Source: Marmoricola sp. | GTDB lineage: Bacteria; Actinomycetota; Actinomycetes; Propionibacteriales; Nocardioidaceae | NCBI GenBank assembly: GCA_025965195.1 | Contig: JAOPXK010000042.1 | Coordinates: 1-64,000, forward strand | Reading direction: 5' to 3' | Length of the DNA stretch: 64,000 nt | Program-made: the position numbers and the translations under genes | Part shown: positions 15,742 through 21,959 of the stretch, piece by piece | Numbering within the stretch: position 1 is the stretch's first letter | Layout: the number at the start of each line of letters is the position of its first letter | Notes under the pieces: model-generated | What the model was told of the DNA's origin: nothing | Databases searched by the model: none | Seen by the model: only the letters and a program-made list of their open reading frames with translations

Positions 15742-16041
15742 TCAGCTTCCGGGCCACTCACCAGTCCAACGCTCGAACGCCTTGGCTCCGCCTCGGCTGA
15801 CCAGTGCCTTCACCAAGGCGAAAATCGCACCTTGCACGGTGGCGGCGATGAGAATCTCGCGCAGGTCATACTCCGACTCGAGTGCCTTGGGCGCATCAGC
15901 ATCATCACCGGGTGCGGCGTGTTTCCACACCTGCTTGAAGATCTGCCCGGCGACCACACCGGCGACCACGCTGCTGATCAGGCCAACCGGTCGGTAGAGA
16001 ATCTTGGCGGTCGTGCTGGTGTTCTTCTCACTCGTGCTCAT
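15742..16041 (-). CDS. DUF4235 small membrane protein
   Basis: A 99-residue protein with a membrane segment near the N-terminus (LYRPVGLISSVVAGVVAGQIFKQVW) and a second one (REILIAATVQGAIFALVKALV), the DUF4235 pattern of actinobacterial membrane proteins of unknown function. Its start overlaps the end of the YihY gene by 14 bases, so it is the last gene of the five-gene envelope operon. Upstream in-frame sequence is basic low-complexity shadow sequence and was left out. Confidence 0.8.
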   Translation of the reverse strand: MSTSEKNTSTTAKILYRPVGLISSVVAGVVAGQIFKQVWKHAAPGDDADAPKALESEYDLREILIAATVQGAIFALVKALVSRGGAKAFERWTGEWPGS

Positions 16042-17113
16042 CCGAAGTGCCCTCCTTGGCATTCTGGCTTTCGCCATGGCTGGTGCGGAGGTGACGTCCG
16101 CGTGCGACGTCCTTCTGGGCCTTTTCCTCCGCCTTCTCGATGTTGTGGGTGTCGCGTGGTGGTAGCTGGATGGTGCGCTCCGCAGCCAGTCCGGCCTGGA
16201 GCTCGCGACCACGCTCCAGTTCGGCGTCGAGTTCGGCGCCGAACAGCAGGGCGAGGTTGGTGATCCACAACCAGAGCAGAAAGATCACGACACCGGCCAG
16301 CGAGCCGTACGTCTTGTTGTAGGAGGCGAAGTTGGCCACGTAGAAGCCGAAGAGTGCCGACGCCAGGATCCAGATGGTGATTGCGAGCAGGGCGCCAATG
16401 CTGATCCAGCGGAACTTCGGTTGCTGAATGTTCGGGGTCGTGTAGTAGAGAATCGCGACGATCAGGACCACCGCCGCGAGTATTACCGGCCACTTCGCTA
16501 TTTCCCAGACCAGAACTGCTGTGGACCCCAGACCCAGTGCGCTCCCGACCGACTTCGCCGCCGGCCCGGTGAGAACCAGCGCCAGGGCCACCGCAGCGGC
16601 GAGCACCAACGCCACCAAGGTGACGAGCAACAGCAGGGGACGGAGCTTCCAGATGGGTCGGCCCTCGCCGATCTCGTACATCCGGTTCATCGCTCGGCCG
16701 AAGGCGCCGACGTATCCCGACGCGGACCAGATCGCGGTGGCCAGTCCGATCACGAAAGCGACGCCGGCAGCCTGCTTGGCCTGTGCCAAGGACATCAGGG
16801 TCGGCTGCAGGGTGCCGACCAGGGAGCCGGCTCCGACATCGCCCAGAACGCCAAGGATCGTCGTCACCGTCTGCGGGCCCTGACCGACCAGCCCGACCAG
16901 TGAGACGAGCGCGATTGCTGCCGGAAACAGCGCGAGGACCGCGTAGTAGGTCAGCGCAGCGGCAAGGTCGGTGCACTGGTCCTTGGAGAACTCGCGCGCC
17001 GTCTTGCGGGCAACGTAGTTCCACGAGGCTTTCGTGATCTCACCGGGCGAGTCCGGCTTTCCTGCCGCTGATGGATCGTTGGCTCGCAAGGATGGGGTGG
17101 CCGACCGGCTCAT
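16028..17113 (-). CDS. YihY/BrkB-family membrane protein
   Basis: A 361-residue integral membrane protein with six hydrophobic segments between about residues 50 and 300. DLAAALTYYAVLALFPAAIALVSL, ATAIWSASGYVGAFGRAMNRMYEI and NKTYGSLAGVVIFLLWLWITNLALLFGAELDAE are the conserved YihY blocks (formerly called RNase BN/BrkB). The cytoplasmic C-terminal tail is long and charged. The family's role is not firmly known; transport or envelope functions have been suggested. It overlaps the DUF3618 gene as ATGA, so translation is coupled. Confidence 0.88.
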   Translation of the reverse strand: MSRSATPSLRANDPSAAGKPDSPGEITKASWNYVARKTAREFSKDQCTDLAAALTYYAVLALFPAAIALVSLVGLVGQGPQTVTTILGVLGDVGAGSLVGTLQPTLMSLAQAKQAAGVAFVIGLATAIWSASGYVGAFGRAMNRMYEIGEGRPIWKLRPLLLLVTLVALVLAAAVALALVLTGPAAKSVGSALGLGSTAVLVWEIAKWPVILAAVVLIVAILYYTTPNIQQPKFRWISIGALLAITIWILASALFGFYVANFASYNKTYGSLAGVVIFLLWLWITNLALLFGAELDAELERGRELQAGLAAERTIQLPPRDTHNIEKAEEKAQKDVARGRHLRTSHGESQNAKEGTSDEHE

Positions 17114-17478
17114 CGGGTCCGCCGCCTCCGCAGGAACACCCCGACGCCGAGCACGGTCAGAAGTACGGCGCCTGCGGGTATCGCCGGCATGACGGTGCCG
17201 TCGTCGCGGACCGCCGCGCTCCGGGCGCGTGCGCTGAGTGCAGCCGCACTGGACTTCGCTGAGTTCAGCTGCCCGATCGCGCGTTGCCTGGCCAGATCGA
17301 CCTGCGCCCTGGCTCGCGTCTTCACGTCCAGCCTGGCCGTTAGCGCATCAACGGTCTCGCCGAGCTCCTGTCGCGTCTGGGCGATGTCGGCTTGGATCTG
17401 CTCGACGTCAGCGCCCTTCCCGGATCCGTCGTCACCGGACTCTGATGCCTTGTACTTCCTGTTCGTCTCCGAGATCAC
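17110..17478 (-). CDS. DUF3618 protein with C-terminal membrane anchor
   Basis: A 122-residue protein. A helical segment (EQIQADIAQTRQELGETVDALTARLDVKTRAR, about 25-58), the DUF3618 signature, precedes a helical stretch and a single membrane segment close to the C-terminus (VLLTVLGVGVFLRRRR). DUF3618 proteins are of unknown function and regularly sit with holin-like and YtxH-like genes, as here. It overlaps both neighbours by four bases (ATGA), which shows a coupled operon. Confidence 0.82.
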   Translation of the reverse strand: MISETNRKYKASESGDDGSGKGADVEQIQADIAQTRQELGETVDALTARLDVKTRARAQVDLARQRAIGQLNSAKSSAAALSARARSAAVRDDGTVMPAIPAGAVLLTVLGVGVFLRRRRTR

Positions 17479-17912
17479 TGACGTGCCTCCTTCACGGTCG
17501 CCAAGTCCTGTTTGACGCCTTCGACGGCTCGCTCGGGCACCAGCGGGGCCGCGTGGGCGAGCTGCTTCTTGCCCACCAGGGCCGAGACTCCTGCGATGAC
17601 AAAAAGCCCGATCGCTACGACCAAGGCCGCCAGCCAGGCGGCAAGGACCAGGTCGAGCGCCAAGATCGCCGTCGTGATCAGCACGCCGAGGCCGAACAGG
17701 GCGACGACTCCAGAGGTCCCGAAGAGGGCCGCTCCGACCCCGACGTGCTTCACCTTCTGCTGCATCTCGGCCTGGGCCAGCTGGAGTTCGCGTCGAACGA
17801 GCAGGGCTGACTGCTCCGACAGCTTGCCGACGAGCTCACCGGCCGAGAGGTCCGCCGCCCACGACGACGGTCGTATCCCTGATGTGTCCGGCGTCGTGGT
17901 GTGCTCAGACAT
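17475..17912 (-). CDS. phage-holin-family membrane protein (holin-X type)
   Basis: A 145-residue protein: an amphipathic helix (AGELVGKLSEQSALLVRRELQLAQAEMQQK, about 22-52) followed by two membrane segments (about 58-82 and 88-112), the pattern of the putative actinobacterial holin superfamily III. It is named after phage holins but occurs in chromosomal envelope operons and is probably not lytic. It lies between the YtxH-like and DUF3618 genes, overlapping both. Confidence 0.82.
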   Translation of the reverse strand: MSEHTTTPDTSGIRPSSWAADLSAGELVGKLSEQSALLVRRELQLAQAEMQQKVKHVGVGAALFGTSGVVALFGLGVLITTAILALDLVLAAWLAALVVAIGLFVIAGVSALVGKKQLAHAAPLVPERAVEGVKQDLATVKEARQ

Positions 17913-18171
17913 CCGGGCCGTCCGTCCCGGTCGAGAAGCCAGATGTGTCCGACGCCCCAGGCTGGGGGGCGGCTGAACCTGCTGGGCCGGACTCTCCTGT
18001 GCGGCTGCTCGTTGCCCGCTGCGCGACCCGGTCGACCTGTTCCTTGACCTTCGGGTCCTGCAACAGGTTCTGGGCCTTGGTCTTGAGTTGCTCGTAGCGT
18101 TGCCGCCCGTCCCGTGTTCCCAGGACGTATCCGGCCGCTCCGCCGACGAGAAGTGCGAGCTTGGTCTTCAT
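17905..18171 (-). CDS. YtxH-like small membrane protein, first gene of envelope operon
   Basis: An 88-residue protein starting KTKLALLVGGAAGYVLGTRDGRQRYEQLK, a short membrane segment followed by GTxxGRxxYEx, the pattern of YtxH-like proteins. The tail is helical, then disordered, rich in Ser/Gly/Pro. GGAGG lies six bases before the ATG. Its end overlaps the holin-like gene by eight bases. The long leader contains the tandem repeat, and the TetR operators lie further upstream, so this gene heads a regulated operon of five. Confidence 0.72.
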   Translation of the reverse strand: MKTKLALLVGGAAGYVLGTRDGRQRYEQLKTKAQNLLQDPKVKEQVDRVAQRATSSRTGESGPAGSAAPQPGASDTSGFSTGTDGPDV

Positions 18172-18185
18172 GGGGTGCCTCCGGT

Positions 18186-18281
18186 GATCTCTGGTTGTCG
18201 ATCTCTGGTTGTCGATCTCTGGTTGTCGATCTCTGGTTGTCGATCTGGTTGTCGATCTCTTGGTGTCGATCTCTTGGTGCC
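18186..18281. repeat. 14-bp tandem repeat, seven copies
   Basis: Four exact copies of GATCTCTGGTTGTC (18186-18241) are followed by a 12-base copy lacking CT (18242-18253) and two variants (GATCTCTTGGTGTC and GATCTCTTGGTGCC). The array lies only 15 bases upstream of the YtxH-like start, so it is in the mRNA leader of the envelope operon or in its promoter. Copy number may vary between strains. Confidence 0.9.
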
Positions 18282-18334: not shown

Positions 18335-18387
18335 AGCCTTACGCTGTAAAGTAATCCCCGATGTTGGGAACTTTACAACGTAAGGCT
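18335..18387. promoter_or_regulatory. paired inverted TetR-type operators
   Basis: AGCCTTACGCTGTAAAGT (18335-18352) and ACTTTACAACGTAAGGCT (18370-18387) are reverse complements at 17 of 18 positions. Each copy is itself a near-palindrome (TTACGnTGTAA), a shape typical of TetR-family operators. They lie between the tetR gene and the envelope operon, 35 bases centre to centre. I infer that the TetR protein binds both and controls itself and the operon. The pair could also fold as an 18-bp hairpin. Confidence 0.7.
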
Positions 18388-18441
18388 CCAGGGTCAAGAC
18401 CGCATTCCGAGTAGCGTGGCCGCCCTAGGTGAGGAGGACCG

Positions 18442-19176
18442 ATGCCAAAGGGCGACGACCCCGTTGACGCCGACGCTCAGGTGGTCGACCGGCACGCCCC
18501 GCCGTCTGCGCGCGTACCACTGAGCCGCGAGCGCGTTGTAGCCGCAGCGGTCTCCTTCATCGACGAGGCCGGCCTGCCGGGCCTGTCCATGCGTCGGCTG
18601 GGCGACATGCTGGGCGTGGAGGCCATGTCGCTGTATCGCTACGTGCCCGGCAGGGAAGCCTTGCTCGATGCTGTCGTGGAGACGATCGTCGCGGAGATGC
18701 AGGAGGACGACGATGTCACCGACCAGCCTCAGGACGGCTGGCAGGACTTTCTGCAACGACAGGCCCACGGAGTTCGCCGGGTGGCTTTGACCCATCCCAA
18801 GATCTTTCCGCTGGTGGCCTCTCGCCCCGCCGAAGCGCCTTGGCTGCGGCCTCCGCTCCGGAGCCTGAAGTGGGTCGAGTCCTTCATGAGTGGCTTGCAG
18901 AGCGAGGGATTCAGCGATCCGGCGGCGGTCACGGCCTACCGCTCGTTCTCCAGTTTCCTGCTTGGACACCTGCTTCTCGAGGTTGCGGCATTGGGTGCCG
19001 ATCTGGGTCCCCTGGACGTCATCGACGACGGCGTGGAGCTGAACAAGTCCCTTGCGCTCTATCCGACCGTAGCCCGGCTACGGAGACCGCTCGCGGAGGA
19101 CCACTCCGCCGCAGAGTTCGAAGAGGCACTCGAGGAGCTCCTCAACCGCCTGGCCCTGGTCCAGTCGGAGTCCTGA
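18442..19176 (+). CDS. TetR-family transcriptional repressor
   Basis: A 244-residue regulator. The N-terminal helix-turn-helix lies at about 22-75 (LSRERVVAAAVSFIDEAGLPGLSMRRLGDMLGVEAMSLYRYV), and the C-terminal part is of the TetR_C type, as in the tetracycline repressor group, with about nine helices. The ligand is unknown. A GGAGG lies six bases before the ATG (GTGAGGAGGACCG). Two operator-like palindromes stand 55-107 bases upstream, and the envelope operon runs the other way, so it is most likely a local autorepressor. Confidence 0.88.
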   Translation: MPKGDDPVDADAQVVDRHAPPSARVPLSRERVVAAAVSFIDEAGLPGLSMRRLGDMLGVEAMSLYRYVPGREALLDAVVETIVAEMQEDDDVTDQPQDGWQDFLQRQAHGVRRVALTHPKIFPLVASRPAEAPWLRPPLRSLKWVESFMSGLQSEGFSDPAAVTAYRSFSSFLLGHLLLEVAALGADLGPLDVIDDGVELNKSLALYPTVARLRRPLAEDHSAAEFEEALEELLNRLALVQSES

Positions 19177-19194
19177 CCTGACCGCTGGCCCGAT

Positions 19195-19445
19195 GATCCC
19201 GAAGGACACTCCTGCGACGCCGCGAAGATCGCCTCCGATACCCGTCACGCGTTGCTGGACAGGAGGCAGCCGTTCATCGCCGAGACGGTCTTCTCCCACC
19301 CCTCCAAGCTCGACCTGATCGACGACGCCCACAACCCCGGCCATACATCGTGTTCCTGCACGCTCTGCTCGTCCCCGAGGACCTCACTTGCCACCGACCT
19401 CGGTCGTCGCGTTGTAGTACCGCGCGGGGCAAACCACAGGACGAG
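19195..19445 (+). pseudogene. fragment of a zeta-toxin-like ATPase
   Basis: In one frame this reads DPEGHSCDAAKIASDTRHAL, RQPFIAETVFSHPSKLDLID, DAHNPG, then continues in another as YIVFLHALLVPEDL and in a third as GRRVVVPRGANH. Together this matches the middle of zeta-toxin/ABC-type ATPase proteins that I know from actinobacteria (FIAETVFSHPSKL..., then V-L-HxLLVPE-L). The P-loop N-terminus and the C-terminus are missing and there are at least two frameshifts, so it is dead. It fills most of the 347-base gap between tetR and the STAS gene. Confidence 0.6.
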
Positions 19446-19523
19446 GCGTAACCGTGCATGCCGCGTCTCGTTGAGGCGATGACAGCCATTTCCGTTCACG
19501 AGGCTTTGGGATGTGGAGGATGC

Positions 19524-19841
19524 ATGGCTGAGTTCGCTGCCCGCCCGCCGCAGCATGGTGTCGGGTCGCTGGCTGTCTCGGGCGAGGTGGATATCGCGGT
19601 GGTTGAGACCCTTCTCGCCGAGGCGCGTGCCTGTCTGAACGCCGACGTATCCGGGCTCGTGATCGATCTCGGAGGGGTCACCTTCATTGACTCGAGCGGG
19701 CTCGGCGCGCTCGTCCGGCTCCGCAATGAGGCAGCCCAGACCGAGAAGAACATCGCTCTCGCCCATGTGCCGCCTGCAGTTGCCCGCCTGTTCGAAGTCA
19801 CCGGCCTCACCGGTATCTTCCCGACGCGAGCAGGAGACTGA
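19524..19841 (+). CDS. STAS-domain anti-sigma-factor antagonist
   Basis: A 105-residue single-domain STAS protein of the SpoIIAA/RsbV kind. The phosphorylatable Ser lies in TFIDSSGLGALVRL, after LVIDLGGV. When dephosphorylated it would bind its partner kinase/anti-sigma factor and free a sigma factor. The start at AEFAARPP is set by GGAGG five bases upstream; an ATG 66 bases earlier has no such site. The SpoIIE-type phosphatase and HATPase genes that follow within four bases are the obvious partners, giving a complete partner-switching module without a sigma factor in sight. Confidence 0.88.
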   Translation: MAEFAARPPQHGVGSLAVSGEVDIAVVETLLAEARACLNADVSGLVIDLGGVTFIDSSGLGALVRLRNEAAQTEKNIALAHVPPAVARLFEVTGLTGIFPTRAGD

Positions 19842-19845
19842 CTCC

Positions 19846-21585
19846 ATGCCCGGCACCCAGACGTCGACGGGCGCCACGGTCCCACCGATGCGTGGACCTG
19901 CACAGGGCGACACCGACGCCGTCCTGAACAACCAGCCAAACCAGAAATATTGGTCCGACTCGGCAACTGGCGACCTGGAGCAGCGGGCCGGTCATTCCAG
20001 GAGAGTCGCTGCTCTCATCTGTGTCATCGGCGTGCTCCTGACTGCACTGTCCAGCTGGGCAGCAGCGCGGGTCGACGACAAGGCTGAGCAACGTCTCCTG
20101 CAGGTGCAGACCAAGCAAGCGGCGGCGGTGCTGTCGACCGCCATCCTCTTGATCGAGGGACCGCTGCGTACGGCGCTGAGCGTGCAGCGGGTGGCAGGCC
20201 TCAAGGACACGACCGCGTTCGAGCGCTTCATGGCTGCGTCGGTCGGTCCGGACAAGTCATTCGTGTCGGCGTCGATCTGGCATCGCCGCGAGAATCACTT
20301 GACGCGGCTCGGCAGCGTCGGAGTCGCCCCGGCGCTTGCACCCGGTAGACCAGCGACCGAGGCCTATCTGCGCCGTGCGTTCCACACGACCACGTTCACC
20401 GTTCGGGCTGTCTCCGCTGGTGCTCAACGCCGGATCGCCTACGCGATGGCAGCCCAGGGTTCAGACCTTGTCGTCTACGCGGAGCGGGCCATCCCCGCGG
20501 ACCGACGCTCACCGGTCGCCAGTGACTCCGCGTTCGCAGACCTGCACTACGCCATCTATCTCGGACCCAGGACCGACAACACGTCGTTGTCGACCACAGA
20601 CATGGACCCATCGACGTTGCCGCTGACGGGCACAACCGCCCGGGCCACCGTTCCGTTCGGCGACACCGTCCTGACCGTGGCCACCTCCTCCGGGCGTCAC
20701 CTTGGCGCCTCCCTGAGCCAGCGGCTTGCGCTGATGTTGCTCGTCGGCGGGATTTTCCTCACCCTCATCGCCGCACGCACCGGCCAGCAACTCGTACGTC
20801 GACGGCAGGATGCCGAAAGAAACGCCTCCACCATCACCGGACTCTTCGAGCGGGTCGAGATCCTGTACGGGCAGCAGCGAGAGCTCTCCGTACGACTCCA
20901 GCGAGCGCTGCTCCCGCACGCGATCCCGAACATCCCGCACCTGGAGATCGCGGCCGAGTACATGGCCGGGGCGCAGGGGGTCGACATCGGTGGCGACTGG
21001 TACAGCATCATCGGCCTGAACGACGACCACTTCGCGTTCGTCGTGGGTGATGTCTCCGGCCGAGGGATCGACGCCGTCGCCGTGATGGCACACGCACGAT
21101 TCACACTCCGGGCATACCTCCTACAAGGCGACTCCCCCGCCGTCGCGCTCGAGAAGTGCTCGCACCAGTTCGACATCAGCGTTGACGGCCACATCACGAC
21201 AACTGTCGTCGGTGTCGGCAACTGGCGCACCGGCGAGATCACGATCGCCAACGCCGGGCATCCGGCTCCCTTGCTGATTGCAGAGGACACCACCGAGTTC
21301 GTGGAAGTCACTCCTGGCCCACCACTGGGTACAGGCCCGACGACCTACCTGTCGACAACCTTCACGATGTCGCCCGGCGCCACCCTGTTCTGCTTCACCG
21401 ACGGCCTGATCGAGAGGCGGAGCGAAAGCATCGACGTAGGCATGCTTCGACTGGCAGCCACCGTTCAGACGTCAGCAGAGGAGCCCGTCGACGCGCTCGT
21501 CTCCCGTGCATTGGCCAGCCTGAGGAGCAACGATGCCGCGGACGACATCGCCGTGCTCGCATTCCGATGGATCCCGATCCGATGA
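19846..21585 (+). CDS. membrane SpoIIE/PP2C phosphatase
   Basis: A 579-residue protein. A membrane segment (VAALICVIGVLLTALSSWAA, about 55-75) and a second (about 295-315) enclose an extracellular sensor domain of about 220 residues of CHASE-like appearance, and the C-terminal cytoplasmic part is a PP2C-type SpoIIE domain with the metal-binding acidic motifs GGDWYS, VGDVSGRGIDA, FTDGLIERR and DDIAVLAF. It should dephosphorylate the STAS protein encoded just upstream in response to an external signal. The ATG lies four bases after the STAS stop, and GGAG lies within CAGGAGACTG before it. Its end overlaps the kinase gene as ATGA. Confidence 0.9.
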   Translation: MPGTQTSTGATVPPMRGPAQGDTDAVLNNQPNQKYWSDSATGDLEQRAGHSRRVAALICVIGVLLTALSSWAAARVDDKAEQRLLQVQTKQAAAVLSTAILLIEGPLRTALSVQRVAGLKDTTAFERFMAASVGPDKSFVSASIWHRRENHLTRLGSVGVAPALAPGRPATEAYLRRAFHTTTFTVRAVSAGAQRRIAYAMAAQGSDLVVYAERAIPADRRSPVASDSAFADLHYAIYLGPRTDNTSLSTTDMDPSTLPLTGTTARATVPFGDTVLTVATSSGRHLGASLSQRLALMLLVGGIFLTLIAARTGQQLVRRRQDAERNASTITGLFERVEILYGQQRELSVRLQRALLPHAIPNIPHLEIAAEYMAGAQGVDIGGDWYSIIGLNDDHFAFVVGDVSGRGIDAVAVMAHARFTLRAYLLQGDSPAVALEKCSHQFDISVDGHITTTVVGVGNWRTGEITIANAGHPAPLLIAEDTTEFVEVTPGPPLGTGPTTYLSTTFTMSPGATLFCFTDGLIERRSESIDVGMLRLAATVQTSAEEPVDALVSRALASLRSNDAADDIAVLAFRWIPIR

Positions 21586-21959
21586 GAGCGCGGTTTCCAG
21601 GCGACCTCCACGCGCCCGCGAACGCCCGGGTCTTTGTCACCAAGCGACTCGACACCATCGTCGGCAGTGACCGCACCGCACTCGGCGACGACATCGTGCT
21701 CATCGTCAGTGAACTGGTGACGAACTCCGTACGCGCCGGCGCCGCCACCATCGACCTCCAGGTCCACGCAGACGCGGAACGCGTCGATGTCCGAGTTACC
21801 GACGACGCCGCTGGGTGGCCAACCGCACGCGCGGCAGGCGTCCATGATCAGGGAGGCCGCGGGCTGTCCATCATCGAACACCTGGCCGACAGCTGGAGTA
21901 CCACCGCCCACGATCCCGGCAAGACGGTCACCGCCACCTGGTTCCGGCGACGGAAGTAG
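21582..21959 (+). CDS. HATPase anti-sigma factor / serine kinase (RsbW-like)
   Basis: A 125-residue HATPase_c_2 protein. SELVTNSVRAG is the N box and GGRGLSIIEHLADSW the G box, both complete, so it should bind ATP and act as the kinase/anti-sigma partner of the STAS protein. The ATG overlaps the phosphatase stop as ATGA; an upstream ATG five residues earlier is less likely. It closes the three-gene partner-switching operon. The sigma factor it restrains is not encoded here. Confidence 0.87.
   Translation: MRARFPGDLHAPANARVFVTKRLDTIVGSDRTALGDDIVLIVSELVTNSVRAGAATIDLQVHADAERVDVRVTDDAAGWPTARAAGVHDQGGRGLSIIEHLADSWSTTAHDPGKTVTATWFRRRK

Follow-up and report, generated by a model that had tools for sequence, protein, structure and literature searches.

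The window, as the whole stretch of DNA analysed (64,000 nucleotides) is called here, carries a tetR-type regulator gene, a divergent set of genes for envelope proteins, and two short inverted sites between them. The features at this locus were as follows.

15742–16041, minus strand: DUF4235 protein (PF14019; the Pfam match covered residues 73–151 of a 156-aa ORF; start putative)
16028–17113, minus strand: BrkB/YihY-family membrane protein (PF03631; Pfam 8.6e-63)
17110–17478, minus strand: DUF3618 protein (PF12277; Pfam 1.7e-14)
17475–17912, minus strand: actinobacterial Holin-X (PF07332; Pfam 2.9e-32)
17905–18171, minus strand: ytxH-like small membrane protein, gene 1 of the likely operon (PF12732, 0.004, under the curated cut-off)
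18335–18352, no strand assigned: left putative operator, core TTACGCTGTAA at 18339–18349; nearer the ytxH operon; recurs in the TetR clade
18354–18379, minus strand: weak candidate sigma-B/F-like promoter GTTG-N16-GGGGAT, directed towards ytxH, read from the sequence
18370–18387, no strand assigned: right putative operator, core TTACAACGTAA at 18373–18383; nearer tetR; recurs in the TetR clade
18370–18397, minus strand: sigma-70-like promoter TTGACC-N16-TAAAGT, directed towards ytxH, by consensus match only
18442–19176, plus strand: tetR (TetR_N + TetR_C_1, 244 aa; Pfam PF02909 2.1e-12, PF00440 1.5e-05)

The YtxH, Holin-X, DUF3618, BrkB and DUF4235 genes are likely to form one operon, since they overlap or abut from first to last. 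For DUF4235 we took an inner ATG near 16041 as the start, since the longer reading frame, which extends to 16212, overlaps with brkB. A GGAGG ribosome site was read from the sequence immediately 5' of the ytxH ATG, and relatives of ytxH were found by tblastn at loci L033, L039, L123, L126, L131 and L136. The untranslated leader of the operon, from the operators to the ytxH ribosome site, is filled by 6.5 copies of a 14-bp tandem repeat (GATCTCTGGTTGTC, 18186–18274), and strain-to-strain variation in copy number could alter expression. Directly 3' of tetR (19461–21956), a STAS protein, a SpoIIE-type phosphatase and a histidine-kinase-like ATPase were identified using Pfam; these are parts of a partner-switching module for stress-sigma control. 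Fragments between tetR and the STAS gene (19180–19400) resembled, by eye only, an ATPase/zeta-toxin-like protein and are perhaps a decayed gene. Two SigBFG proteins scored above cut-off in the window's own genome.

The two sites were returned by a repeat search as inverted arms of 18 nt at 18335–18352 and 18370–18387, 94% complementary and separated by 17 nt, which bears out the claim of the first-pass annotation that, with one of them inverted, they agree in 17 of their 18 positions. The left arm reads AGCCTTACGCTGTAAAGT. Within each arm there is an imperfect palindrome (CTTTACAACGTAAGG and CCTTACGCTGTAAAG), and the palindromic core TTACNNNGTAA is present in both, with 34 bp between the two core centres; the inverted relation of the arms is due to their flanks (AGCC outside, AGT inside). 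The shape of a TetR operator, which the same annotation had ascribed to each site, was found in both arms, with the regulator gene adjoining, and the sites do lie where it had placed them, between tetR (start 18442, plus strand) and ytxH (ATG at 18171, minus strand).

Within the window, the 18-mer (one ambiguous base, up to 3 mismatches) matched at these two places only, and two matches were reached in 0 of 100 shuffles of the window. The core TTACNNNGTAA was observed twice in the 64 kb against 0.02 expected. The proposed search of the genome for further copies was also run: in the whole 3.97 Mb the core was confined to the two operator places, while a reversed control pattern gave 3 matches per strand. 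The 201 bases around the sites had a single match in the genome, namely themselves. The dispersed repeat family that the first-pass annotation had named as a possible refutation was therefore not seen.

The tetR product scored 25.1 bits against PF00440 (cut-off 24) and 47.6 bits against PF02909 (cut-off 21), which assigns it to the TetR family, TetR_C_1 type. Its recognition-helix region is LGVEAMSLYR. The structural model had a mean pLDDT of 86.5 and a pTM of 0.79, and the closest solved structures were 3bqy and the tetracycline repressors (TM about 0.5 by query length). In the C-terminal domain, W100, Q105, H109, R112 and E180 were invariant across 25 sequences. Equivalents of Asn82 and His100, which contact the drug in the tetracycline repressor, were not kept in the alignment, and tetracycline is therefore unlikely as the signal of this protein. 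Identity with the tetracycline repressor proper was rejected on the differing residues at those positions and on the neighbouring genes, which are not transporters.

Recurrence of the site was examined in 98 genomes (the window's own and relatives), 40 with and 58 without a TetR match at E<=1e-20, a threshold that lets in some paralogues. The pattern YTTACRNYGTAAR was found in 37 of the 40 TetR-bearing genomes vs 12 of the 58 others (Fisher 7e-13) and, within the same family alone, in 25/28 vs 4/33; the reversed control pattern occurred in 6/40 and 11/58. A wider set of 80 named loci plus fetched stretches gave 114 clade loci, from which the duplicate L122 had been dropped and outgroup loci L066–L069 left out, and in which L125 and L131 (TetR protein identical to L037 and L039) stayed. 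These 114 Actinomycetota loci formed one TetR clade (support 100/97), separate from 11 outgroup rows, and VEAM(S/A)LY was kept in the recognition-helix region of 113. The core TTACNNNGTAA was present at 90 of the 114 loci (136 sites in total; reversed control 0/114) and absent from 24; at 75 it lay within −500 to +1300 of the tetR start. The loci are related by descent, so these locus counts are not independent.

In the window and at L033, the site separates tetR from the divergently oriented operon. Elsewhere the gene order runs tetR, site, holin, DUF3618, DUF4235, YtxH, BrkB (L039/L131), tetR, site, YtxH, BrkB (L123/L126, Nocardioides glacieisoli) or tetR, site, YtxH, DUF4235 (L136, Occultella aeris). 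The site thus keeps its place before YtxH, Holin-X or DUF4235 genes irrespective of how these are ordered and how they are oriented to tetR. Genome G017 has its main holin operon on contig C6 and its tetR on C80, and a core on C6 (L213) stands 79 bases 5' of the start of the holin match. Holin matches were found in 34 of 58 genomes, and 30 holin loci were examined over 1200 bases upstream of each. The core was present in this interval in 4 of 16 TetR-bearing genomes vs 0 of 14 loci from TetR-less genomes, and the holin operon is therefore a real but occasional target. Control of the operon by the adjacent TetR, as the first-pass annotation had supposed, gains support from this comparison, with the core at 90 of the 114 loci and kept before operon genes. 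Its description of the operon as uncharacterised has to be qualified: the Actinoplanes equivalents, adjacent genes ACSP50_3380–3383 (DUF4235, DUF3618, Holin-X, BrkB/YihY), are strongly up on sigma-H expression according to the available text of PMC11205660, which gives the sigma-H promoter type as GTTT, about 14.6 bases, GGGTA. A sigma-B/F promoter pattern stood before 9 of the 30 holin loci, several far upstream, in an uncontrolled count to which we gave no weight.

The genes behind the site were surveyed as the 110 nearest genes with a start up to 450 bases outward of a site, tetR excluded. They were taken from a simple gene caller that overlooks short genes; ytxH, for example, went uncalled in the window, where the holin was taken as nearest. 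Among the 25 of 54 Pfam families listed, DUF2382 (20), PRC-barrel (19), MS_channel_1st_1 (16), CsbD (15) and STAS (8) were the largest, the first two probably representing largely the same proteins. Glyco_transf_20 (trehalose-phosphate synthase family), ANTAR and Asp23 followed with 4 each, and Holin-X and Transgly_assoc with 3 each; short-chain dehydrogenases (3) and single metabolic genes were also present. For controls, 140 random, quality-filtered genes were drawn from 937 lying far from sites or in site-less loci, and 110 were scanned. These gave DUF2382 2 and Asp23 2 among the 25 commonest of 163 families, so that a family represented by one control gene could have escaped notice; the remaining control families were mostly unrelated (hydrolases, Rieske proteins, transporters, regulators and others).

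Sites away from tetR in TetR genomes were near a sigma factor, PAS-ANTAR and ANTAR proteins, a PRC-DUF2382 protein and a fatty-acid desaturase, and another was near a GGYVAGRM membrane protein without a Pfam match. The latter protein recurs behind operators at L032, L051, L103 and L112, and the two scanned (L103, L112) had no Pfam match. Five Mycolicibacter loci (L158, L161, L171, L172, L176) have four operators each: tetR and a CsbD-like gene are each preceded by one, and a STAS-like gene by two that lie 47 bp apart, the CsbD-like and STAS-like names being assigned by eye. Ten further TetR genomes were searched with the full motif; six (G098, G099, G100, G103, G104, G106) had sites exclusively at the tetR locus, three (G101, G102, G107) had them there and elsewhere, and G105 had none. 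A large regulon in trans was not supported, given the six genomes with sites at the tetR locus only. This distribution suggests that the regulator acts locally on a small number of targets, most of them belonging to the same functional class.

Promoters were sought around the operators. In the window, one sigma-70-like promoter directed towards ytxH was found vs a shuffle mean of 0.0, and the right operator spans its −10 and most of its spacer (18397–18370). Of the GTTT-N14-17-GGGTA type, the window has upstream of the operon only the weak match GTTG-N16-GGGGAT, whose first element also lies within the right operator; the sigma-70-like match fits too. Whichever promoter reading holds, the right operator would overlap the operon promoter, and the left operator would stand at or just past the transcription start. 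Over the whole genome, GTTT-N-GGGTAY was found 3 and 6 times per strand vs 2 and 1 for the control, an uninformative difference.

The overlap between operators and sigma-B/F-type promoters was tested at 131 sites with the operator fixed and the flanks shuffled 200 times, using distance ranges picked after inspection of where −10-like elements fall around the operators. A sigma-B/F-type −10 with its first G at +11 to +14 from the operator centre was present at 17/131 sites vs 2.1 expected (0/200 shuffles), and at −16 to −12 at 6/131 vs 1.7 expected (1/200 shuffles). No excess of −10 elements was seen 20–60 bases off on either side of the 131 sites (17 vs 15.4 and 16 vs 20.2). The fuller pattern GTTT-N14-17-GGG.A occurred at 19/131 sites vs 2.6 expected. 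The 17 comprise ten from Geodermatophilaceae, six from Mycolicibacter and one from G017 (L043), so independent origins are few. The other six (L064, Nocardioides L124, L130, L132, Occultella L136, Arthrobacter L156) have the operator immediately 3' of the −10. Of these 23 matches, 22 are aimed into a neighbouring gene other than tetR (one of them, L161 at −133, has a dehydrogenase as neighbour); at L144 no gene was called. Where operator and sigma-B/F-type promoter overlap, in several lineages, the genes would therefore be under two controls: a stress sigma factor would have to be available and the repressor released. Because the sigma-B/F match in the window is weak, we only infer such dual control for its own genome.

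It is highly probable, in our judgement, that the two sites are operators of the neighbouring tetR, whose product would repress the ytxH-holinX-DUF3618-brkB-DUF4235 operon and itself until released by a small molecule, and that the clade guards stress and envelope genes. A TetR dimer would sit on each site; the right operator, lying over the operon promoter, and the left, at or just after the likely start, would leave the promoter covered. With the sites about 55–107 bp before its start, tetR would be repressed by its own product, and release of TetR by the small molecule would derepress both operon and tetR. Binding, repression, autoregulation and ligand release are steps that we infer from this arrangement. 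The clade, which is represented in many actinomycetotal families, would use TTACRNYGTAA-type operators to guard one or a few general-stress or cell-envelope genes per genome, the guarded gene differing between lineages while its functional class stays mostly constant.

That the pair serves tetR autoregulation alone, with the operon driven independently as a mere neighbour, is improbable, though the distance of 55–107 bp to the tetR start would suit such an arrangement, as would the 12 of 16 TetR-bearing genomes examined in which no core stands within 1200 bases upstream of the holin operon. At L039/L131, L123/L126 and L136, however, the site is behind tetR and before operon genes and therefore cannot serve the tetR promoter; at L213 site and tetR are on different contigs; and 22 of the 23 sigma-B/F-like matches at operators aim at neighbours other than tetR.

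Much less likely is that the arms form a hairpin that works as an attenuator, a terminator or an mRNA-stability element. The strand does fold strongly (−37.8 kcal/mol, z −8.7), but relatives often have a single palindromic core in place of a long inverted repeat, the core tracks the TetR, and the transcription start would probably fall inside the structure. A terminator-like site was sought and none was found, and the terminator was rejected.

A little lower again we place the reading of the sites by another TetR-type protein of the cell. The core is indeed common to TetR-like proteins outside the clade: it was found beside those at L102, L110, L113, L116 and L118–L120 (Pfam on two). For this reason, and with YTTACRNYGTAAR in 12 of 58 TetR-less genomes, the core alone is not specific; such out-of-clade proteins beside the same core may account for some of the 12. 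At L102, L113 and L120, the out-of-clade regulators have the core by alcohol-dehydrogenase-like genes (by eye), and a wider TetR set would therefore share the core as its code. There is no simple covariation of helix and site, since outgroup TetRs with a GRTAM helix have the core adjoining and the four with an RDAM or RDPM helix (L066–L069) lacked it at their loci. Against another reader stand these four proteins of other helix and the genome's only sites, which adjoin this tetR. Finally, that the arms mark the termini of a small element, mobile or dispersed, as a near-perfect inverted repeat might suggest, was rejected and can be given virtually no weight, since the core is absent elsewhere in the 3.97 Mb genome, where extra copies were predicted, and cores recur at same-clade TetR loci in other families.

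Membership of the TetR family is plain; what is new lies in the kind of target and in the way operators overlap stress promoters. Within the open-licence literature of PubMed Central, judged by title and abstract, no description of the regulator or operator was found among the matches listed. Proteins of the CsbD, PRC-barrel/DUF2382, YtxH, Holin-X, DUF3618 and DUF4235 families occur widely, and little is understood of them. A conserved regulator that acts through a short and almost unique operator would bring CsbD, PRC-barrel, YtxH, Holin-X and the DUF families under one logic; the operator is a motif that can be searched for in genomes, the ligand of the TetR would be a handle on the inducing signal of these genes, and the overlap of operator and stress-sigma promoter opens dual control to direct test. 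More tentatively, the clade might serve actinobacteria generally as a "second lock" on the stress response, a ligand-released TetR over sigma-B/F-type promoters whose signal is kept while its target is exchanged; we take this seriously without quite favouring it. If so, YtxH, Holin-X, PRC-barrel, CsbD, the mechanosensitive channel, Asp23 and trehalose synthesis would need both the sigma factor and a small-molecule signal, and the small molecule would report the envelope or osmotic state.

Several known systems invite comparison. The Actinoplanes sigma-H regulon includes adjacent DUF4235, DUF3618, Holin-X and BrkB/YihY genes, as does the window operon, and the available text of that account (PMC11205660) describes sigma-H control with no mention of a TetR operator. 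Among solved structures, the best match of the window TetR is 3bqy, a TetR regulator of Streptomyces coelicolor named only "putative" (4.8e-24 by sequence profile; fold rank 1, E 2.3e-07, TM 0.55 by query length, 31% identity in the fold alignment). The Streptomyces TetR-type repressors ActR, SimR and PamR2 were also sequence and fold matches; they respond to antibiotics and control exporters, whereas the window operon has no transporter family by Pfam. The tetracycline repressors (classes B, D and H) were among the top profile and fold matches and have the same TetR_N + TetR_C_1 architecture, with a similar helix (GVEQPTLY in the repressor chain vs GVEAMSLY). In the tet system two palindromic operators, tetO1 and tetO2, lie between regulator and target, and the window pair is placed alike. 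The clade operator TTACRNYGTAA, however, is unlike the tet operator, and where the tetracycline repressor controls an efflux pump, the target of the window TetR would be a stress and envelope operon.
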